A DNA stretch of 58,860 nucleotides from assembly GCF_006546775.1 (NCBI RefSeq), contig NZ_VICE01000099.1, positions 1 through 58,860 on the forward strand, read 5' to 3'. The position numbers and the translations under genes were made by a program. Source of the stretch: Marilutibacter aestuarii (GTDB taxonomy: Bacteria > Pseudomonadota > Gammaproteobacteria > Xanthomonadales > Xanthomonadaceae). This document shows, piece after piece, positions 42,694-53,373 of this stretch; the stretch's first letter is position 1, and each line of letters opens with the position of its first letter. A model generated the notes under the pieces. It made no database searches, was not told where the DNA came from, and saw only the letters and a list, made by a program, of their open reading frames with translations.

Positions 42694-42770
42694 CGGGGTG
42701 TAGCTCAGCCTGGTAGAGCGCTACGTTCGGGACGTAGAAGTCGCAGGTTCAAATCCTGTCTCCCCGACCA
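42694..42770 (+). tRNA. tRNA-Pro (anticodon CGG)
   Basis: A 77-base cloverleaf with encoded CCA. The anticodon stem CTACG / CGTAG encloses loop TTCGGGA, giving anticodon CGG, which reads CCG. The T arm is GCAGG TTCAAAT CCTGT. The acceptor pairs CGGGGTG with CTCCCCG, leaving a U6-U67 mismatch. C1-G72, typical of bacterial tRNA-Pro, is present. CCG is a heavily used proline codon in this GC-rich genome. Confidence 0.97.
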
Positions 42771-42922: not shown

Positions 42923-44191
42923 TCAGGCCACGCGCGATTCCGGGTGGCGCACCTGGCCGTCGCCACGGACCACGTAGCGTTCGATCGTCAGCGATTCCAC
43001 GCCCATCGGCCCGTAGGCGTGCAGGCGCGTGGTCGAGATGCCGATCTCCGCGCCCAGCCCCAGCGCACCGCCATCGTTGAAGCGGGACGAGGCGTTCACC
43101 ATCACCGCCGAACTGCGGGTACCGCGCACGAAGGCCGCGGCCGCGGCCGCGTCCTCGGTGACGATGACCTCGGTGTGGTCCGAGCCATGCCGGTCGATCT
43201 GGGCGAGCGCGCCGTCGAGGTCGTCGACGACCTGCATCGACACCACCAGGTCGAGGAACTCGGCGCCGTGGTCGGCCTCTTCGGCCGGCACCACGCCCTC
43301 GGCCGCGGCCACGGTGCGCGGGCAGCCGCGGACTTCGACACCCTTGCCCCGAAGGGTGGACACCAGCCGCGGCAGCAGGTCGTCGACCAGGTCCTGGTGG
43401 ACGAGGATGCCTTCGAGTGCGTTGCACACGCCCGGGCGGCTGGTCTTGCCGTCCACCGCCAGGTCGATCGCCTTGGACGGGTCGGCGGCGCGGTCCACGT
43501 AGAGGTGGCAGACGCCCTTGTAGTGCTTGATCACCGGCACGCGCGCGTGCTCGGCGACGAAACGGATCAGGCCTTCGCCGCCGCGGGGGATGGCCAGGTC
43601 GACCAGGTCCGACAACTGGATCAGTTCCATCACGTGCTCCCGCGCCGTGTCGGTGATCAGCGATACGGCGGCTTCGGGCAGCCCCTTCTCGCGCAGCGCG
43701 GCATGCAGGCAGCCGGCGATCGCGGCGTTGCTGGAACGCGCTTCGGAACCGCCGCGCAGCAACACGGCATTGCCCGCCTTCAGGCACAGTGCAGCGGCAT
43801 CGGCCGTCACGTTGGGCCGGGCTTCGTAGATCATCGCGACCAGGCCCAGCGGCAGGCGCTGGCGTTCGATCACCAGCCCGTTCTCATGGGTCTGGCTGCG
43901 GGTCACCTGCCCTACCGGATCGTCCTGGGCAGCCACTTCGCGCAGGGCATTGGCGATGCCAGCCACGCGCGCTTCGTCGAGCTTGAGGCGATCGAGCATG
44001 GCGCCCTTGACGCCGTTCTCGTGCGCACGCGCCATGTCCTCGGCGTTCGCCGCCAGGATCGCGTCGCTGCGCGCGTCGAGTTCCGACGCCATGCGCTCGA
44101 TCAGGGCCCGTCGCCCCTCGCCGTCCAGGGCGGCGATGGCGTGCTGGGCCGTGCGGGCCTTCACGGCCAGGTCTCGGACGTATCCGCTCAT
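42923..44191 (-). CDS. proA: Gamma-glutamyl phosphate reductase
   Basis: A 422-residue aldehyde-dehydrogenase-fold enzyme reducing gamma-glutamyl phosphate to glutamate semialdehyde for proline synthesis. Visible: LGLVAMIYEARPNVTADAAALCLKAGNAVLLRGG (cofactor region), the catalytic Cys in TSRPGVCNALEGILVH, and the C-terminal NASSRFNDGGALGLGAEIGISTTRLHAYGPMG. The ATG overlaps the proB stop (ATGA). It is the last gene of the operon. Confidence 0.97.
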   Translation of the reverse strand: MSGYVRDLAVKARTAQHAIAALDGEGRRALIERMASELDARSDAILAANAEDMARAHENGVKGAMLDRLKLDEARVAGIANALREVAAQDDPVGQVTRSQTHENGLVIERQRLPLGLVAMIYEARPNVTADAAALCLKAGNAVLLRGGSEARSSNAAIAGCLHAALREKGLPEAAVSLITDTAREHVMELIQLSDLVDLAIPRGGEGLIRFVAEHARVPVIKHYKGVCHLYVDRAADPSKAIDLAVDGKTSRPGVCNALEGILVHQDLVDDLLPRLVSTLRGKGVEVRGCPRTVAAAEGVVPAEEADHGAEFLDLVVSMQVVDDLDGALAQIDRHGSDHTEVIVTEDAAAAAAFVRGTRSSAVMVNASSRFNDGGALGLGAEIGISTTRLHAYGPMGVESLTIERYVVRGDGQVRHPESRVA

Positions 44192-45351
44192 GCATTCTCC
44201 TCGGTGTTGAGCAGCACGAGGTCGTCGCGGTGGATCACGGACTCACCGAAGGTGAATCCCAGCACGGCTTCGATCTCGTTGCTGTGGCGGCGCACGATGC
44301 GCCGCATGTCGGCGGCGCCGTATTGCGCCAGGCCGCGCGCCAACGCCGGCCCGCGGGGCTGTTCGTTGACGACTTCGATGACGTCGCCGCGGCGGAACTC
44401 GCCTTCCACGCGGACCACGCCGCCAGGCAACAGGGACGCACCGCGCCGGTGCAGGGCCGCGGCGGCACCGCCGTCGACCATCAGGCTGCCGCAGGACGGC
44501 GCATGGCGCAGCCACTGCTTGCGCGCGGTCAGCGGGTCGGACTCGGCCATCAGCAGGGTGCCGTGCAGGCGTCCATCCGACAGGGCGCGGATGACGTCGG
44601 CGTCGCGCCCGCAGAACAGCACCGTGGGGATGCCGGCGGTCGAGGCCTTGGATGCGGCCTCGAGCTTGGTCAGCATGCCGCCGGTGCCGAGCTCGCCCGG
44701 GTCGCCGGAGGCCGCGAGTAGCAGCTCGTCGGTGACGCGGTCGACTTTCAGGATCGGCGCCGCGGACGGCTCGTACTTGGGATGCGCGGTGTAGAGCCCG
44801 CCGATGTCGGTGGCGATCATCAGCAGGTCGGCGTCGACCAGCGAGGCCACCGCGGCGGCGATGTTGTCGTTGTCGCCCAGGCGCAGCTTGTCGATCGCGA
44901 CGGTGTCGTTCTCGTTGACGATCGGCAGCGCACCCACGCGCAACAGCTCGCGCAGGGTGTTGCGCGCATTGAGGTAGCGGCGCCGGTTGAGCATGTCGTC
45001 GTGGCTCAACAGCACCTGCGCGGCGGGGATGCCCGTCAGGCGCTGCCAGAACGACACCAGCGTCGCCTGCCCGAGCGCAGCGAGGGCCTGGCGCTGGACG
45101 GGACCGCTGTTGGTGGACTCGATCCGGCGACGGCCGGCAGCGACCGCGCCGGAGGACACCAGCACCACCTCACGGCCCTGCGAGCGCGCCTCGATGATGA
45201 AGCGCGCCAGCACCGCCGCGTAGCGTGGATCCAGCCCGTCCTCGCTGGGCAGCTTGTCCGTGCCGGCGAGCAGGCTGCTGCCGACCTTGAGCACCGCGCG
45301 CTTCCAGTTCGGCAGCGGTTGCGCGGCGAATACCGTCTGTTCCACGCTCAT
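44188..45351 (-). CDS. proB: Glutamate 5-kinase
   Basis: A 387-residue amino-acid kinase (about 15-270) with a C-terminal PUA domain (about 290-370). Landmarks: [64 protein letters not shown] and the [25 protein letters not shown]. It makes gamma-glutamyl phosphate and is normally feedback-inhibited by proline. ATG 45351 is preceded by GGAGG and overlaps the argH stop (ATGA). Being behind argH couples proline and arginine synthesis from glutamate. Confidence 0.96.
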
Positions 45352-46637
45352 CGCAAGGCCTCCCATCGCTGCTTCAGGCTGTCCAGGCGCAGGGCGCCGG
45401 CGGCGCCGGGCGATACGCGATCGTCCAGGCTGCGTTGCGGGTCGCCCTCGGCCCAGCGCGCCGGGTCGGCGGCTTCGCGGTAGGCCTCGCGGAACGGCAT
45501 GCCGTCGCGCGCCAGCGACACCGCCAGGTCGGTCGCGTACATCGAGGGCTCGAGCGCGTCGCGCATGCGCCCGGGTTGCCACTCCAGGTTGCGCAGCAGG
45601 TCAGGCAGCAGGGCCAGCGCGCCCAGGCCGCGGCCGAAGGCGTGGAAGATGGCGCCCTTGGAGAACTGCAGGTCGCGGTGGTAGCCCGACGGCAGCGACA
45701 GCAACTGCTCGATCTCGGTGCGCGCCGCCGCGGCAGCGGCGTAGCTGGCGCGCATCAGCTCGATCACGTCCGGATTGCGCTTGTTGGGCATGATCGAACT
45801 GCCGGTCGTGTACTGCGAAGGCAGCTGCACGAAACCGTACTCGGCGCTGGTGAACAGGCTCAGGTCCCAGGCCAGCCGGCGCACGTCGAGCAGCGCCGAG
45901 CACAGGGCCTCGATCGCGGCCATCTCGAACTTGCCGCGCGACAGCTGCGCGTAGGTCGCCGACACCTGCAGGCGGCCGAAGCCCAGCGCGGCGGTGGTGT
46001 GGTCGCGGTCCAGCGGCAGGTTGACGCCATAGCCCGCGGCGCTGCCGAGCGGATTGGCGTCGACCCAGTCGTGGGTCTGCGCGGCGCGCACGGCGTTGTC
46101 GATGAAGCCTTCGGCCCAGGCGCTCCACCACATGCCAAGCGAGGAGACCACCGCCCGCTGAAGGTGGGTGTAGCCCGGCAGCGGCACGGCCTGCTCCACC
46201 TCGGCCCGCGCCAGCGCCACCTCGGCGCATTCGCGTGACAACGCCGCCACTTCCGACAGCTTTTCCTTCAGCCACAGGCGCGTGGCGACCAGCACCTGGT
46301 CGTTGCGGCTGCGCCCGGTGTGGATCTTCTTTCCGGTGTCGCCAAGGCGCTCGACCAGGCGCGCCTCGATCGCGGAGTGGCCGTCCTCGTGGCGGTCGTC
46401 GAGGATGAAGCGCCCGGCACGGAAATCATCGGCCAGCGCGTCCATCTCGGCGCACAGGCGTTCGAGTTCGTCGGCACCCAGGATGCCGATGCGCTGCAGC
46501 CCCTCGGCATGCGCGCGACTGGCCTGGATGTCGAACAGGAAGAATTCGCGGTCGAGGACGACGTCCTCGCCGGCAAGGAATGCCTGGATGCGCGCGTCGA
46601 CCTTGACGCCCGGCTTCTGCCACAGCAGTGGACTCAT
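45348..46637 (-). CDS. argH: Argininosuccinate lyase
   Basis: A 429-residue fumarase-superfamily enzyme splitting argininosuccinate to arginine and fumarate. The signature loop [18 protein letters not shown] carries the catalytic Ser. [34 protein letters not shown] and [10 protein letters not shown] are also family-typical. It starts at ATG 46637, immediately after the argC stop with no spacer. The length is a little short of E. coli ArgH (457). Confidence 0.96.
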
Positions 46638-47609
46638 TCAGCAGTTCTCCAACACGGGGATGCCCGTCATTTCGTCCAGCCCGAAGACCAGGTTGAGGTT
46701 CTGCAACGCCTGCGTCGCCGCGCCCTTGAGCAGGTTGTCCTCGGTGGCGACCACCACCAGGCGACGACCGTCCGCGGATACCGCGAAGCCGCCGATGTCG
46801 ACATGGTGCCGCTGCGCGATCGCGCTGACCCACGGGGCTTCGTCGACCACGCGCACGAGCGGCTCGCCTGCATAGCGCTGGCGATAGCGCGCCATCACAT
46901 CGCCCCGCTCGACCGGTGCGGACAGCGGCAGGTTGGCCGTGATGGTCAGGCCCCTGAAATGCGGTGCTACATGTGGAAGGAAGTGGATCGGGTGACCCAA
47001 CTGACTGGAAACCTCGCGTTCGTGGACATGCCCCGTCAATGCGTAGGGCATCAGGTTGTTGCGTAAGGCGTCGGGATCGTTCTTGTCCGACGGCGTGGTG
47101 CCTGCACCCGAATAACCGGAGACACCGAAGCACTGCACCGGCCCGTCGAGATACGCGAGCATCGGTGCCACGGACAGTTGCATCGCCGTGGCATAGCAGC
47201 CCGGATTGCTGATCCTGCGCTGGCCGCGGTAGCGGCCTCGGGTCAGTTCCGGCAGCCCATAATACCAGCTTTCGTCGAACCGATAATCCGCGGACAGGTC
47301 GATGATGACCGGATCGGCGGCGACGCCGCGTGAAACCGCATCGTCGAACGCGTCCACGCACAGCTTCGCCTTGCCATTGGGCAGGGCCAGCACCACCGCG
47401 TCCGCGCCGAGCGCTGGCAAGGCCTCGTGCGAGGGCGAGCAATAGCGCAGCTCGCCCGTGTAAGTGTCGATGTGCGCGGCGACGGGCTGCCCGTCGAGTT
47501 CGCGCGACGACACGTACGCCAGTTCGAACGCGGGGTGCGCGGCGAGCAGGCGGATCAGCTCGGCGCCGACGTAGCCGCGCGCGCCGACGATGCCGACGGT
47601 GATGCCCAT
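46638..47609 (-). CDS. argC: N-acetyl-gamma-glutamyl-phosphate reductase
   Basis: A 323-residue NADPH-dependent reductase, third step of arginine synthesis. The N-terminal Rossmann motif is [18 protein letters not shown]. The catalytic Cys lies in [25 protein letters not shown] and [11 protein letters not shown] match the family. The start is ATG 47609. The preceding GNAT gene ends one base away. Confidence 0.96.
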
Positions 47610-47610
47610 G

Positions 47611-48237
47611 TCAGTGTCCTCCCATGGCGGCGTGCCGCGCCAGCCGTGCGGCGAGGTGCCGCTTCACCGCGGGCCATTCGGATTCGATGATCGAGAACAC
47701 GACGGTATCGCGGTAGCTGCCGTCGTCCAGCCGCTGGTGGTTGCGCAGGATGCCGTCCTGCTTGGCGCCGAGTCGCGCGATCGCCTCGCGCGAGCGCTGG
47801 TTGAACCAGTGCGTTCGGAACTCCACCGCGATGCACCGCCATGCCTCGAAGGCCTGCGCCAGCATCAGCGCCTTCGTCTCGGTGTTGGTCGAGGTGCGCT
47901 GCGCGCTGGCGGCGTACCAGGTGTACCCGATCTCGACACGCCGGTTGCCGGCATCGATGTTGCAGAAGCTGGTCTGGCCGAGGACGCGGCCATCACCCCG
48001 GCCGACGACGACGTAGGGCAACTGCTGCCCCCGCGCCCGGCGATGCAGGCAGGCCTCCACGTGTTCGGTCATCGCCTCCGGTCGCGGCACCCCGGTGTAC
48101 CACAGCTCCCACAGGCGGCCGTCGGCGCAGGCGCGGGCGAGGCCCCCGGCGTGGTGGGCCTGCATCGGTTCAAGGCGCACGCCCTCGCCTTCCAGCAGCG
48201 GCGCCTCGTGCATGTGGGCGGGGACATTGGCGGTCAT
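47611..48237 (-). CDS. GNAT-family acetyltransferase within the arg operon
   Basis: A 208-residue GNAT protein of the RimJ/RimL-like branch. [19 protein letters not shown] opens the fold; [19 protein letters not shown] and the [43 protein letters not shown] segment supply the acetyl-CoA site and beta-bulge helix. It overlaps argAB (ATGA) and touches argC, so it is firmly inside the operon. The fused argAB already carries an acetylglutamate synthase domain, so this enzyme is not needed for that step. Its acceptor, an N-terminus or small molecule, is unknown. The gene appears in the same place in Xanthomonas, as I recall. Confidence 0.85.
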
Positions 48238-49592
48238 GCCTGCGCTCCCGTCGCCGTCCGGTCGTGCAGGGTCACCGGGCGCGTCGCGCAATGCGCCACG
48301 CAGCGGCCGATCGCATCGAAGCCGTCCATGCCGTACCAGAACACGCGCCACTTGCCCTGCCGCAGGCAACCGTCGGATTCGGAGTGGTAGAACGCGTTGA
48401 CCGGATTGCCGTTGCGCGAGCGCCAGAACAGGCTGGGATTCTGCTCGTGCATGACCTGCCAGACCGCGCGTCCGAGGCCCTCGCCCTGCGCATCGTCGAG
48501 CACGGCGAACTTGTCGAGGTAGGTCCCTGCGTCCTCCGCGGTCAGGATCACGGCGGCACGGTAGTTCTCGCTGACGTAGGCGCGGTGCAGGCGCGTGGTG
48601 TCGAAATAATCGGGCACCAGCTCGCGACCGAAGGCCGACTCGATCAGGCCGCGCAGGCGCGGCAGGTCCAGTTCGTCCCAGCTCGAGACCTGCAGGACTC
48701 GCTCGCCGCGCCGCACCAGCGTACCCGAGCCCTTGTGGGTGAACAGCTCCTTCGCCAGTTCGGAGGGCTTGGTGATCGAGACCGAGGACGTCAGCGGCAG
48801 CGAATCGAGCAGGTCCTTGATCTGCTCGATCTTCACCTTCATGCCGCCGTTGACCCAGGGTTGCGCGACGAGGTGCTCGTACTCGGTGGTGAGGTTGATC
48901 GAATCGATCACCTTGCCGCGCTCGTTGAGCAGCCCCCCGGTGCCGGTCAGGAAGACGATCTTGTAGGGCTGGAGCATCTGCACCAGCTCGTTGGCGGCGA
49001 AGTCGGCGTTGACGTTCAGGATCTGCCCGCCGACGGTCTCGCCCAGGCTGGCGATCACCGGGATGGAACCGGCCTTCAGGCTGGCCTCGATGGGTGCCAG
49101 GTCGACGCGCTTGACCTCGCCGACCATGCCGTAGGTGTCGCGGTCCAGGTATTCGGCCTCGAACACGCCCGAGACGATGGAGGTGGCGCGCGCGTCGAAG
49201 GCCTGAAGCGCTTCGACCAGCTTCAGGTTCTGCGCGTGGAACACCCGGCGCACGATGGCCAGGGCCTCCGGCGAGGTGACCCGCAGGCCATCGACGGTGT
49301 GCTTCTCGATGCCCGCCGCGGCGAGTTCGCCGTCGAGCTGCGGGCCCGCGCCGTGGATGACGATCGGGGTCAGGCCCACGTCCTGCAGGAAGGCCAGCGA
49401 CGAGGTGAGCGCGTCGAGGTCGTCGCGCAGGACCGCGCCGCCGACCTTGACCACGGCGAAGCGCTTGGCGTCGAGCTGCGAGAAGCGCTTGAGGTACTGC
49501 GAGATCTCCTTCGCGCTCGCCATGCTGGACAGCAGGCGGACGATGGTCTGCCGTGTCTGGATGTCGCGGCTGTCTTCGCGGATGTCGTTCAT
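48234..49592 (-). CDS. argB: Bifunctional N-acetylglutamate synthase/kinase
   Basis: A 452-residue fusion. The N-terminal amino-acid kinase domain (about 25-285) has [28 protein letters not shown] and the C-terminal ENGG-type loop [17 protein letters not shown]. The C-terminal GNAT (NAT) domain (about 295-440) has [29 protein letters not shown] and [20 protein letters not shown]. This is the vertebrate-like NAGS-K known from Xanthomonas and relatives. It makes and phosphorylates N-acetylglutamate and is expected to be inhibited by arginine. The start is ATG 49592; a TTG at 49604 would overlap the argE stop as TTGA and may be used. Confidence 0.94.
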
Positions 49593-49600
49593 GGCGATGT

Positions 49601-50698
49601 TCAAGTCGGTCGCCCGGTATCAAGGATGCGGATGATGGATTCGGTGTAACGCTGGAGTTGCCGCAGCTCGACCCATTCGTCGGCCGTGTGCGCCTGCGCG
49701 ATGTCGCCGGGCCCGTACACGAAGGCCGTCAGTCCCGCCTGGGAGAACAGCGAGGCTTCCGTCCAGAAGTCGACCACGTTGCCGATCGGCAGGCCCAGCT
49801 CGTCGGCCAGGTCACGCGCCTCCAGGCGCTTGCGTTCGGCGTCGGCGACGTCGCCACCGGGCAGCGAGGGACCGCGGAACGTTTCCTCGTAGTGCGCCAG
49901 TGCATCGGGGTCGGCGAAGCCGCGGAAGGTGTCGTGCAGGCCGTCGATGGACATCGAGGGCAAGGGCCGGAAACCGAAGCGCAGCTCGGCGCTGGGCGCG
50001 ATCATGTTGGCCTTGATCCCGCCCTCGACCCGGCCGATGTTGAAGCGCAGCCCGGTCAGGCCGCCGAAGCGCTGGTGGGCCTGCGCCTCGACATGGTCCA
50101 GCGCGCGGCCGCCCCAACGCATGGCCTGGTGCAAGGCACTGGCCTGCATGGCGTTGGCGCCGGAAGCGTGTCCGGCCATGCCCTTGAACTTCATCAGCAC
50201 AGAGCTGATCCCGCGGTGCGCCAGCACGGCCTCGCAACCGGTGGGTTCGGCGATGATCGCCTCGCGGAAGCCATGGTCGCGGGCGAGGAACGCGGCGATG
50301 CAGCGCGGATCATTCGCTTCCTCGTCGGTACTGAACAGGAACGCGGCGTCGCCTTCCGTCACCGACGCGGCGGTCAGCAGGCCGGCCGCGGCGCCCTTGA
50401 TGTCGCAGGCGCCCAGCCCGATCGCACGGTCGCCCTCCACGCGCAGCACGTGCGGGTCGGCCGACCATGCCTCGGACGACGGCACGGTGTCGAGGTGGAC
50501 GTTGAACACCCGCGTGGGCGTGCCGCGCACGGCGAGCATGGAAACGGCCCCGGCGCCATGGTCGACGACTTCGATGTCGAAGCCGTCCAACTGCGCGCGC
50601 AGGTAGTCGAAGATGCCGCCGGTGCCGATCTCGCGCGGGGGGTTGCGCGTGTCGAACCCGACCAGGGCGTCCAGGTGCTTGAGGGTCTTGGCCAGCAC
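49601..50698 (-). CDS. argE: Acetylornithine/acetylcitrulline deacetylase (ArgE-type)
   Basis: A 365-residue M20 di-zinc amidohydrolase. Metal and catalytic residues: H68 and D70 in [10 protein letters not shown]99 in [13 protein letters not shown], and the E126-E127 pair in [23 protein letters not shown] and a late HTADEW follow. Next to AOTCase, its likely substrate is N-acetylcitrulline, released as citrulline for ArgG, as shown for the Xanthomonas enzyme. The start is GTG 50698, preceded by GAGGA nine bases upstream; no ATG is available. It begins 12 bases after the argG stop. Confidence 0.92.
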
Positions 50699-50710: not shown

Positions 50711-51967
50711 TCAGTCCTTCGCCGGGCCGCGGTTGATCTCGGCCCACAGCGTGCTGCTCATGCCGAACAGCTTGATGAAGCCCTCGGCCTCGGCCACGCC
50801 CCAGTCGGCGGCCTGCGCATAGGTCGCGCCCTTGGCATTGAGGATGTGGGGCGACTCGATCGCGACCGCGTTGACGATGCCACCCGAGGTTTCCAGCGTG
50901 ACCTCGCCATTGACCGTCGACTGGCTCGACGCGAGGAACGCCTCGAGGTCGGTCTTCAGGGGGTCATGGAAAAAGCCCTCGTAGACCAGCTCGACCCACT
51001 TGCGCGCGACGTCGGGCTTGAAGCGGTTCTGCTGCTTGCTCAGCACCGCTTCTTCCAGGGCGCGGTGGGCGGTCAGCAGCGCGAACAGGCCGGGGGCCTC
51101 GTACACGATGCGGCCTTTCAGGCCGATGGTGGTGTCGCCGGTGTACAGCCCGCGGCCGACGCCATAGGCCGCGAACAGGCCGTTGAGCCGTGCCAGCATC
51201 GCGTGGCCCGCGATCGCCTCGCCATCGAGCGCGACGGCCTCGCCGTTCTCGAAGCGGATCTTCACCCGCAGCGCCTCGGCCGGCCATTCGGCGCGCGGCT
51301 TGCACCAGCCCCGCGCGCCCTCGCCCGGCGCCTGCCAGCGGTCGATCTCGCCGCCGGAGAGCGTCACGCCCAGGAGGTTCTCGTTGATCGTGTAGGCCTT
51401 CTGCTTGGCACGCACGCCGAAGCCGCGCTCTTCCAGGTAGGCTTGTTCGTAGGCACGGACCTCGGTGTGTTCCTTCTGGATCTCGCGGATCGGCGCGATG
51501 ATCTCGTAGTCGCCCAGCGCCTTGACCGCCAGGTCGAAGCGGACCTGGTCGTTGCCCATGCCGGTGCAGCCGTGCGCGATCGCGCGCGTGCCCAGCTCCT
51601 GGCAGCGCTTCAACGCCGCCTCGACGATCAGGTAGCGGTCCGACACCAGCAAGGGGTACTGGCCCTGGTAGCCCTCGCCCGCCCAGACGAAGGGCTTGAC
51701 GAAGCCCGACCAGATCGCCGGTCCGCCGTCGACGGTGACGTGCGAGGCGACGCCCAGTTCATCGGCGCGCTGCTCGATGAATGCGCGCTCCTCGGCATCG
51801 ACGCCGCCGGTGTCGGCGAACACCGTGTGCACGTTCCAGCCCCGCTCCTGCAGGTAGGGCACGCAGAAGCTGGTGTCGAGGCCGCCGGAGAAGGCCAGGA
51901 CGATGTCCTTGGCGCCGTGATTCGGGATTCGGGATTCGGGATTGGCAGGAGCGGTTTGCTGCGGCAT
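50711..51967 (-). CDS. argG: Argininosuccinate synthase
   Basis: A 418-residue enzyme joining citrulline and aspartate with ATP. The PP-loop [10 protein letters not shown] lies at 25-33 region; [25 protein letters not shown] and [21 protein letters not shown] follow. The first ~18 residues ([18 protein letters not shown]) are an extra stretch compared with the usual start close to [10 protein letters not shown]. Part of it is encoded by a GATTCGG heptamer array (51919-51943). The gene is second in the operon, 76 bases after argF'; nothing notable is seen in that gap. Confidence 0.95.
51919..51943. repeat. GATTCGG heptamer tandem repeat inside argG
   Basis: Three exact GATTCGG units (51919-51939) and a partial fourth (51940-51943) lie in the 5' coding part of argG. 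Because 7 is not a multiple of 3, the repeat is read in all three phases and encodes NPESRIPNH. It resembles the CATTCCC array before efpL. Confidence 0.9.
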
Positions 51968-52043: not shown

Positions 52044-53057
52044 TCACGAATCACCAGCACCCACCAGCGCGGCCATCACCGCTTTCTGCACGTGCAGGCG
52101 GTTCTCGGCTTCGTCGATGGCGATGCAGTTGGGGGAGTCCATCACCGCGTCGGTCGCCTTGACGTTGCGACGCAGCGGCAGGCAGTGGGAGAACACGCCA
52201 TTGTTGGTCAGCGCCATCTTGGCTTCATCGACGATGAAGTGCTGGTACTGGTCGCGGATGGGCTTTTCCGGCCCCCAGTTGCCGAAGTACGGCAGCGCGC
52301 CCCAGCTCTTGGCGTAGACGACGTCGGCGCCGGCATACGCCGACTCGATGTCGTGGCTGACCTGCAGGGAGCCGCCCGACTCGGCGACGTTCGTCGCGGC
52401 CCAGTCCATGTAGCGCTCGTCGAGCACGTACTCGGGGGTCGGACACAGCAATGTCACGTCCATGCCCATGCGGGTGGCGATGGTCAGCGCCGAATTGGCC
52501 ACGGCGGTATTGAGCGGCTTGGGGTGGTAAGTCCACGTGAGGACGTACTTCCTGCCGCGCAGGTCGGCCGTGCCGAAGTGCTCCTGCAGGGCCAGCGCAT
52601 GCGCCAGCTCCTGGCAGGGATGGGTGATCGTCTCCATGTTGATCACCGGCACTGGCGAGTACTTCGCGAAGCTCTTGAGGACGATGTCCTCGCGGTCGTA
52701 GGCCCAGTCGACGAACTTGGGGAAGGCGCGCACGCCGATCAGGTCGACGTAGCGGCCGAGCACGCGGGCGACCTCCGCGATGTGTTCTTCGGTGTCGCCG
52801 TCCATCACGGTGCCGAGGTTGAACTCGATCGGCCATGCATCCTTGCCCGGCTGCAGCACGACCGCGTGGCCACCGAGCTGGAACGCGCCGAGTTCGAAGC
52901 TGGTCCGCGTGCGCATCGACGGATTGAAGAACACCAGGGCGATCGAGCGACCCTTGAGCTGGTTGCCCAGCTTGCTGCGCTTGAACTCGGACGCCTGCAC
53001 CAGCAGCGCGTCGAGGTCCGGGCGGGACCAGTCCTGGGTATTCAGAAAGTGCTTCAT
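52044..53057 (-). CDS. argF': N-acetylornithine carbamoyltransferase
   Basis: A 337-residue transcarbamylase. The carbamoyl-phosphate loop is FNPSMRTRTSFELG (SxRTRT type). GKDAWPIEF and MDGDTEEHIAEVARVL contain the Trp and Glu characteristic of acetylornithine-specific AOTCase in Xanthomonas. ETITHPCQELAHALAL and SHCLPLRRNVKA complete the active site. It carbamoylates N-acetylornithine to N-acetylcitrulline, so the pathway avoids free ornithine. It is the first structural gene of the operon, preceded by a terminator-like hairpin in a long leader. Confidence 0.95.
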   Translation of the reverse strand: MKHFLNTQDWSRPDLDALLVQASEFKRSKLGNQLKGRSIALVFFNPSMRTRTSFELGAFQLGGHAVVLQPGKDAWPIEFNLGTVMDGDTEEHIAEVARVLGRYVDLIGVRAFPKFVDWAYDREDIVLKSFAKYSPVPVINMETITHPCQELAHALALQEHFGTADLRGRKYVLTWTYHPKPLNTAVANSALTIATRMGMDVTLLCPTPEYVLDERYMDWAATNVAESGGSLQVSHDIESAYAGADVVYAKSWGALPYFGNWGPEKPIRDQYQHFIVDEAKMALTNNGVFSHCLPLRRNVKATDAVMDSPNCIAIDEAENRLHVQKAVMAALVGAGDS

Positions 53058-53118
53058 CGCGGGTTCCAGAAGGGGGCGCCATGCCGGCGCCGGTCGGAGG
53101 GTTGCCGGGCCAGAAAGC

Positions 53119-53150
53119 AGAAAAGCCCAGCGGTCAGGCTGGGCTTTTCT
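53119..53150 (-). terminator. Terminator hairpin in the arg operon leader
   Basis: A perfect 13-bp inverted repeat (AGAAAAGCCCAGC at 53119-53131; GCTGGGCTTTTCT at 53138-53150) with a 6-base loop. Read leftward the stem is followed by CTTTTCTGCTTTCTGG, a T-rich tail. It lies 61 bases upstream of the argF' ATG and in the operon's own direction, the position of an attenuator. Confidence 0.75.
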
Positions 53151-53195
53151 CGTGTCACCCGTTCGGGGGGCGACTCCAGAAACAGGCGATGACGC

Positions 53196-53300
53196 CTACC
53201 CAGCCGGTGTTGGCGGGTACGGTCGACGCGCGCGCGAGGTCATGCCCGCCGCCATCCAGGCGGAGGTCAGAACGTCGGCGTCGGCGTAGTGGCGGCTCAT
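53196..53300 (-). CDS. Possible arginine leader peptide
   Basis: A 34-codon frame opening at ATG 53300, with further in-frame ATGs at 53255 and 53243. Near its end comes MTSRARRPYPPTPAG, with three Arg codons (CGC, CGT, CGA) within four positions. The stop TAG is next to the 7-nt anti-terminator candidate and 45 bases before the terminator. No strong Shine-Dalgarno is seen before the first ATG; GGCGGCGGGC precedes the last. Whether it is translated is unknown. Confidence 0.35.
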   Translation of the reverse strand: MSRHYADADVLTSAWMAAGMTSRARRPYPPTPAG

Positions 53301-53373
53301 CAGGACGCGAATGCTCGCATGCCGCCGGGCAGCACGCAAGCGACCGAAATCTCCACGCGGGGGCACGGCCGGT

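Follow-up and report, generated by a model that had tools for sequence, protein, structure and literature searches.

A predicted ribosome-mediated arginine attenuator ahead of the argF' operon of Marilutibacter aestuarii and its relatives

We propose that the operon headed by argF' in Marilutibacter aestuarii is controlled by a trp-type, ribosome-mediated transcription attenuator that senses charged arginyl-tRNA. We hold this reading to be very likely (probability about 0.87), with the response to arginine itself inferred. Comparison of related loci establishes a conserved translated leader with fixed Arg codons, a conserved promoter pattern and alternative helices that co-vary; ArgR was not detected in the sampled genomes of the same family. 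The structural features of a trp-type attenuator that can be tested on sequence are met, namely a translated leader, a cluster of end-product codons, an intrinsic terminator, an antiterminator exclusive with it and an upstream promoter; the 1:2 hairpin is predicted by modelling. An earlier note, made without database searches, had offered the same interpretation, which the sequence evidence supports, and had added that it knew of no arginine attenuator described in this family. In the main texts of the CC-licensed PMC literature that we searched, no arginine attenuator is described ahead of argF' and Xoo5, a small RNA, is not presented as an attenuator; this is no proof of absence (in the passages bearing on the question, "arginine" occurs 0 times in PMC2965389 and "argF" 0 times in PMC8632094). 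Relative to that literature the inferred specificity for arginine would be new; judged by its anatomy, the type of mechanism is already known.

The operon and its leader

Coordinates are positions in the window, the whole 58,860-nt stretch of DNA analysed (Marilutibacter aestuarii contig NZ_VICE01000099.1), and both leader and operon lie on its minus strand. NCBIfam bears out the order argF'-G-E'-B-(GNAT)-C-H-proB-proA. The first gene, argF' (52044-53057), encodes N-acetylornithine carbamoyltransferase (NF003384, 638.3 bits against a cut-off of 288). It is followed by argG (argininosuccinate synthase, 50711-51967), argE' (acetylornithine deacetylase, 49601-50698), an argB-type acetylglutamate kinase gene with a C-terminal extension (48234-49604), a gene for a GNAT-like acetyltransferase (47611-48150), argC (46638-47609), argH (45348-46637), proB (glutamate 5-kinase, 44188-45345, start codon chosen by us) and proA (glutamate-5-semialdehyde dehydrogenase, 42923-44191), all assigned by NCBIfam. 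The "argA" of the earlier note could not be confirmed as such, because the GNAT-like gene has only weak NCBIfam matches, all below their cut-offs. This gene lies between argB and argC, and NCBIfam gives it no clear substrate. Just past the end of proA, on the plus strand, Rfam places a tRNA gene (42694-42767).

The leader contains a frame of 34 codons, MSRHYADADVLTSAWMAAGMTSRARRPYPPTPAG, followed by a stop codon (53196-53300). Near the end of the frame are the putative regulatory codons CGC-GCG-CGT-CGA (Arg-Ala-Arg-Arg, 53223-53234). Region 1 (CCGTACCCGCC, 53212-53222) comes next and is the predicted partner of region 2 when this stretch is folded alone. Region 2, the antiterminator arm GGCTGGG(T) (53198-53205), extends into the stop codon: GGCTGGG (53205-53199) adjoins the TAG (53198-53196), and the T that follows it overlaps that stop. 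Common to antiterminator and terminator is the segment 53137-53150, made up of the terminator 5' arm (53150-53138) and region 3, CCCAGCC (53143-53137). Region 4, the terminator 3' arm (53119-53131), completes a 13-bp hairpin (53150-53138 with 53131-53119) about 61 nt upstream of the argF' ATG (53057), with a T-rich tract at 53114-53124 recognized both in the sequence and by a terminator scan. That scan reported one site only, the hairpin ahead of argF', where shuffled sequences gave a mean of 0.3. The earlier note had described the frame with its Arg codons, the GGCTGGG/CCCAGCC complement at the stop and in the terminator arm, and the 13-bp terminator 61 nt before argF', and each of these held at its position. 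It had also suggested folding the leader RNA; the 261-nt leader folds with z = -2.95, and 1 of 200 shuffles was equally good.

The leader peptide is translated and conserved

Named relatives were sampled by their argF', taking the best 80 of 571 confirmed genes, which with the window gives 81 loci. For wider comparisons we sampled 99 genomes of the window's family, 200 of its order, whose families are labelled f1-f12, and 185 of its class. The core CGN-GCN-CGN-CGN-CCN stands in an open frame in 81/81 loci, with Arg at all three places, and all 81 keep Arg cluster, region 2 and terminator. Because the core codons, region 2 and the terminator recur in every locus, the arrangement is more than chance. 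The earlier note had called for such an alignment and had held that its proposal would fall if relatives kept the hairpin without the Arg codons or the complement; this is not what we observed, all three being kept together throughout. The first two Arg codons are always CGT or CGC, and the third is CGA in 80 of the 81 loci and CGG in one (L020). Of 1346 Arg codons counted over the first 330 codons of these 81 argF' genes, 7 are CGA, and the window's operon has 11 CGA among 253. In 81/81 loci the start of region 2 follows the CGA codon after 15-19 nt, and this holds even where the stop comes earlier (+27 versus +33 or +36); hence the distance is tied to the Arg codons.

We computed pN and pS over 34 representatives. 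For the Arg-Ala-Arg codons pN was 0.000 against a pS of 0.446, and for codons -7 to -1 it was 0.054 against 0.451; for codons -14 to -8 the values were 0.356 and 0.403. From codon -7 to codon +2 the residues are constant while synonymous sites vary, and we conclude that the leader is translated. These values also show that the peptide AxMAxGMTSRARRP is under selection as protein, beyond what a simple starvation sensor needs. Conservation outside the Arg residues exceeds the needs of codon sensing and counts against our reading. One alternative is nascent-chain arrest: the switch would be an arrest peptide, AxMAxGMTSRARRP, that stops the ribosome at RR-P together with a co-signal (arginine or another ligand), and no codon-starvation device would be involved. 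In its favour, 12 of the 14 residues from -9 to +4 are identical in at least 31 of the 34 representatives, with synonymous sites often variable, and CGA-CCG is invariant at all six bases in 34/34. A codon pair of the CGA-CCG type is known to be slow in yeast. Against it, the peptide differs in families f4 and f6-f10, where the Arg clusters alone remain, and ligand-induced arrest on the Arg codons would free region 2 and turn the operon on at high arginine, which is the wrong sense. We regard this alternative as unlikely.

A conserved promoter pattern precedes the leader

Immediately upstream of the leader, TTGCGT (-35 element, 53339-53334) is separated by a 17-nt spacer ending in TGC from GAGCAT (53316-53311), which lies 10 nt upstream of the leader ATG; TGC-GAGCAT (53311-53319) forms an extended -10 element. 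The general pattern, TTGNNN, 17-18 nt ending in TGN, (G/A)ANNAT and an in-frame start 4-14 nt further on, is found in 81/81 loci, and its promoter part in 0/324 control segments from argF'. The pattern was formulated after inspection of the loci. In three Xanthomonas loci (L005, L022 and L014), the first base of the match to the Rfam family Xoo5, discussed below, coincides with the predicted transcription start, 8 nt after the -10 element. By its spacing from the -10 element and by homology to the Xoo5 5' end, the start in the window is predicted at 53303, 3 nt before the leader ATG; it is inferred and has not been mapped here.

The earlier note had named as weak points the small number of Arg codons and the lack of a clear promoter or Shine-Dalgarno sequence. 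The codon number is answered by the conservation and the CGA bias described above, and the statement on the promoter needs correction, in view of the pattern in all 81 loci. The lack of a Shine-Dalgarno sequence would be explained by a near-leaderless start. The note had further held that a promoter between the hairpin and argF' would refute it. The conserved upstream promoter and the RACE-mapped 5' end of Xoo5 contradict such a placement; an additional internal promoter there remains possible and is not excluded.

Regions 2, 3 and 4 co-vary

In an alignment of 34 rows (A1), 96.3% of cells in the terminator helix are paired, and 4 of its 11 pairs have changed on both sides. Counting 2:3 pairs in fixed columns of A1 gave no signal above shuffles. 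We rejected this count as uninformative: in the rows that changed, region 2 sits one base out of register, and the majority of rows show no variation. Regions 2, 3 and 4 were also read locus by locus in 131 loci, comprising the 81 described above and 50 of 59 loci from outside f1. The other nine (L166, L167, L199, L210, L213, L220, L221, L228 and L234) were left out, as were the divergent f1 loci L185-L193, and L170 was dropped as not being upstream of argF'. A change in region 3 is mostly accompanied by changes in regions 2 and 4. Among the 128 loci with a region 3 of the form (A/G)CCC(A/G)GC, base 5 of region 3, base 3 of region 2 and base 3 of region 4 read A/T/T in 101 and G/C/C in 16, with 11 exceptions. 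Ten of the G/C/C loci belong to f1 and f12 and six to f2 and f3, and most 7-mers of these six pair imperfectly. Three f8 loci have ACCTGG as region 3 and, as region 2, CCAGG (two loci) or CCGGG (one locus). Taking each distinct family triplet once (31 in all), we counted Watson-Crick pairs in 179 of 217 cells; 1 of 5000 shuffles reached this value. The choice of region 2 rested on its complementarity to region 3, a procedure biased towards pairing, and no correction was made for relatedness. With these two reservations, the antiterminator is mutually exclusive with the terminator, and regions 2, 3 and 4 co-vary.

Of the 56 non-f1 loci with a terminator, 36 passed a shuffle test of 2:3 pairing (at most 10 of 200 shuffles as good). 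None of 8 divergent f1 loci (L185-L192) did, and in one of these, L190, no terminator was detected. Five f7 loci and one f9 locus pair CCGGG with CCCAG, with one mismatch, and several loci of f2, f3 and f9 pair imperfectly over the 7-mer. Pairing was unclear in the automatic assignment at L210, L228 and L234, and region 2 was unclear at L214, L216 and L219 (f9).

We also predicted pairing with the ribosome placed at different positions on the leader. Before region 4 is made, the predicted 2:3 probability exceeds 0.5 in 81/81 loci with the ribosome at CGA and in 80/81 with the ribosome at the first Arg codon. With the ribosome at the stop it does so in 0/81, which follows by construction from the masking of region 2. 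After region 4 has been made, the median probability of 3:4 is above that of 2:3 in every state (0.94 with the ribosome at CGA); at equilibrium 3:4 thus wins, and the outcome has to be decided kinetically, as it is in trp attenuation. Without a ribosome, the 2:3 probability before region 4 is above 0.5 in 47/81 loci, so that termination is not clearly favoured, and this counts against our reading. The 1:2 pairing probability exceeds 0.5 in 81/81 when the stretch is folded alone; this is a prediction from folding only.

Proposed mechanism

In the mechanism we favour, transcription would start about 3 nt upstream of the leader AUG, as inferred by homology. With ample Arg-tRNA, the ribosome would pass CGC-GCG-CGT-CGA, arrive at the stop that ends region 2 and cover that region; region 3 would then pair with region 4, and RNA polymerase would halt ahead of argF'. 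With scarce Arg-tRNA, the ribosome would stall on the Arg codons, perhaps most readily on the rare CGA. Its footprint would then lie over region 1, and region 2 would pair with region 3 once region 3 emerges. With 2:3 formed, the terminator could not form in time and the operon would be transcribed. The direction of control, the identity of the signal, the kinetic competition and any contribution of the nascent peptide are all inferred, and it counts against our reading that no source we found holds data on a response to arginine. A bolder version would make the leader a hybrid sensor, with ribosome pausing tuned by the nascent chain AxMAxGMTSRARRP, itself conserved, and by the rare codon pair CGA-CCG; codon starvation and peptide-dependent arrest would act together, and the device would replace ArgR across most of the order, with the "sRNA" Xoo5 as its leader RNA. 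Taken jointly, these claims go further than we would wager, and we judge them less likely than not.

A mechanism like that of Salmonella speF is a further alternative. There, in the nearest Arg-codon leader that we found, a short upstream frame (orf34) carries consecutive Arg codons that sense arginine by ribosome pausing (PMC6386406), a likeness to the leader studied here. On this view, where the ribosome stands on the Arg codons would matter for mRNA stability, for Rho access or for the translation of argF', whereas intrinsic termination would not be altered. In support, orf34 uses two consecutive Arg codons by such means (PMC6386406), and the Xoo5 small RNAs are shorter than the predicted terminated product. 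Against it, the terminator stem, the T-tract and region 2 are among the conserved elements, and the distance from terminator to argF' varies among loci. We consider such control very unlikely as an account of the argF' leader. The two systems also differ in their genes and exits: speF is an ornithine decarboxylase gene controlled through Rho-dependent termination, RNase G and sequestration of the ribosome-binding site, whereas in the window the gene is argF', the first of a biosynthetic operon, and an intrinsic terminator in front of it serves as the exit.

Correspondence to the Rfam family Xoo5

The Rfam family Xoo5 (RF02242) spans the argF' leader of Xanthomonas and Stenotrophomonas, with full-length matches in 6 of 10 named relatives scanned (122-151 bits). 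The other 4 fall below the gathering cut-off of 50 bits, as does the window (27.4 bits). The window's copy is the homologous locus to Xoo5, yet it stands outside the curated family. sRNA-Xoo5 was found by cloning and Northern blot, has a RACE-mapped 5' end and measures 124 nt (Liang et al. 2011, PMC3039613); the Rfam model has the same length of 124 nt. Northern bands of about 130 and about 100 nt were both seen in early growth and the short one alone later (PMC3039613). The words "argF", "arginine" and "ornithine" have 0 occurrences in the main text of that paper.

The terminator is not part of the Rfam model, which ends ahead of it. Cloning placed the 3' end about 5 nt short of the terminator stem, and a terminated RNA is predicted to be about 157-158 nt. 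This shortfall is a point against attenuation; processing or truncated cloning could account for it.

Under a third alternative, Xoo5 is a stand-alone, trans-acting sRNA, the hairpin is a plain terminator that merely ends Xoo5 or an upstream gene, and argF' has its own promoter. In its favour, Xoo5 was described as an sRNA on the strength of cloning, Northern blot and RACE (PMC3039613), and Rfam files it as one. Against it, the leader is translated with fixed Arg codons, region 2 co-varies though a terminator has no need of it, the leader is linked to argF', and Xoo5 is likely Hfq-independent (PMC3039613). We judge it very unlikely. As a separate observation, the Xoo5 that is listed among sRNA genes is, at L005:2733-2856 and at five more loci, the translated argF' leader. 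Sub-threshold Rfam matches to PtaRNA1 and rnk_pseudo at the leader were taken as chance.

Distribution of the leader and of ArgR

A covariance model of the leader (R1) scored at or above our threshold for family genomes, 45 bits, in 96 of the 99 genomes of the window's family, and the other three (G007, G049 and G056) are those without a full argF'. All 45 R1 loci that we opened (L111-L155) adjoin argF'. Across the 200 genomes of the order, R1 matches strongly in f2, f12 and most of f3; in the other families it is weak or gives nothing. We rejected R1 as a detector for the whole order, as there was no strong match in f4, f6, f8, f10 and most of f7 and f9. Its silence is not evidence that the leader is absent, because diverged leaders can be read directly before argF'. 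In 185 genomes of the class, R1 gave 3 matches at E <= 1e-7, all in the window's family; diverged leaders would escape this search. Second R1 matches (about 32-41 bits, several genomes) were rejected as second attenuator copies: 11 such loci (L176-L184, L194 and L195) have no argF' downstream and resemble terminators after other genes.

In six further families, most of the loci sampled have a diverged, Arg-rich leader ahead of argF'. The peptides carry LRRRRR or LRRRR in f4, RRRR in f6, RRLRRP, HLRRP and similar in f7, VVRRNRRR, VVRRRRP or RRLRR in f8, LRRRSRRP and similar in f9, and VVRRRPRPR in f10. A terminator follows them, with region 2 in most. A shuffle test of the Arg cluster (at most 25 of 500), from which L220 was left out, was passed by 19 of 43 loci of f4-f10 taken singly, and failed by 18 of 26 f7 and 4 of 6 f9 loci. 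No leader was seen at L199 (f5) or L213 (f9), and L220 offers only 86 nt upstream.

Arginine biosynthesis is, in textbooks, under the control of the ArgR repressor. The ArgR domain PF02863 was found neither in the window's own genome (0/1) nor in any of the 99 family genomes; as a control, the search was positive in 8 of 14 named genomes. In the order it was found in 8 of 200 genomes, all of them f11 (8 of the 9 f11 genomes sampled). The ninth, G446, is 77% complete. In all 8 (L236-L243), the ArgR domain lies about 1.4-1.5 kb from an argF-like gene, on the other strand, and the argF-like gene is 38-43% identical to the window's argF'. The 260 nt before that gene contain no terminator in 8/8, and the stretch resembles the end of another gene. 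Within this sample, and within 260 nt upstream for f11, ArgR and the leader do not co-occur. In f11 no leader was seen, and it is precisely here that the repressor is linked to the pathway.

Relationship to known systems

The trp, his, leu and thr attenuators of Proteobacteria combine a leader peptide rich in end-product codons with alternating helices. The argF' leader resembles them in its end-product codons, its 1:2 (predicted), 2:3 and 3:4 helices and its intrinsic terminator before a biosynthetic operon. It differs in its inferred specificity for arginine, its near-leaderless start, its nearly fixed rare CGA with a conserved peptide context, and its occurrence in genomes without detected ArgR. 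Rfam Xoo5 is the same locus, the leader of argF', and differs in being filed as an sRNA gene. The Pseudomonas carA leader also combines a leader peptide with proposed attenuation before a gene common to the arginine pathway. There, the proposed attenuation responds to pyrimidines, arginine acts at the transcriptional level (PMC4997734), and the relevant passages of that paper describe no Arg-codon switch. The fungal arginine attenuator peptide is encoded by an upstream open reading frame and represses an arginine-pathway gene; it acts by eukaryotic translational arrest at high arginine, without a transcription terminator.

If our reading is right, arginine can be added to the list of amino acids to which trp-type attenuators of biosynthetic operons respond, and a function is suggested for the Rfam "sRNA" Xoo5. 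Most sampled families of one gammaproteobacterial order, Xanthomonas included, appear to control arginine synthesis by an RNA/ribosome switch, and in f11, the sole sampled family with detectable ArgR, ArgR lies beside the carbamoyltransferase gene and no such leader was seen. The near-leaderless start and almost fixed rare CGA codon offer a natural system for studies of pausing.

Variant leaders

Several loci depart from the common arrangement. At L185 (G034, small-genome genus g34), the leader peptide keeps MTSRARR, with CGA-CGG, but its stop is more distant and region 2 pairs only weakly; this leader may be a decaying switch. In six f7 loci (L226 and L229-L233), the frame continues through region 2 (PGWVAV before the stop, and similar), and the stop comes after region 2, in contrast with the window's family. 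Region 2 seems to have moved in two f3 loci (L166 and L167), where GGGTTTCG can pair with CGAAGCCC in the outer terminator arm. At L210 (G444, f8), a stretch ahead of the terminator, CTCTTTGG, has its complement, CCAAAGAG, in the terminator loop region and is not complementary to the 5' arm; read by eye, this may represent a different antiterminator geometry.
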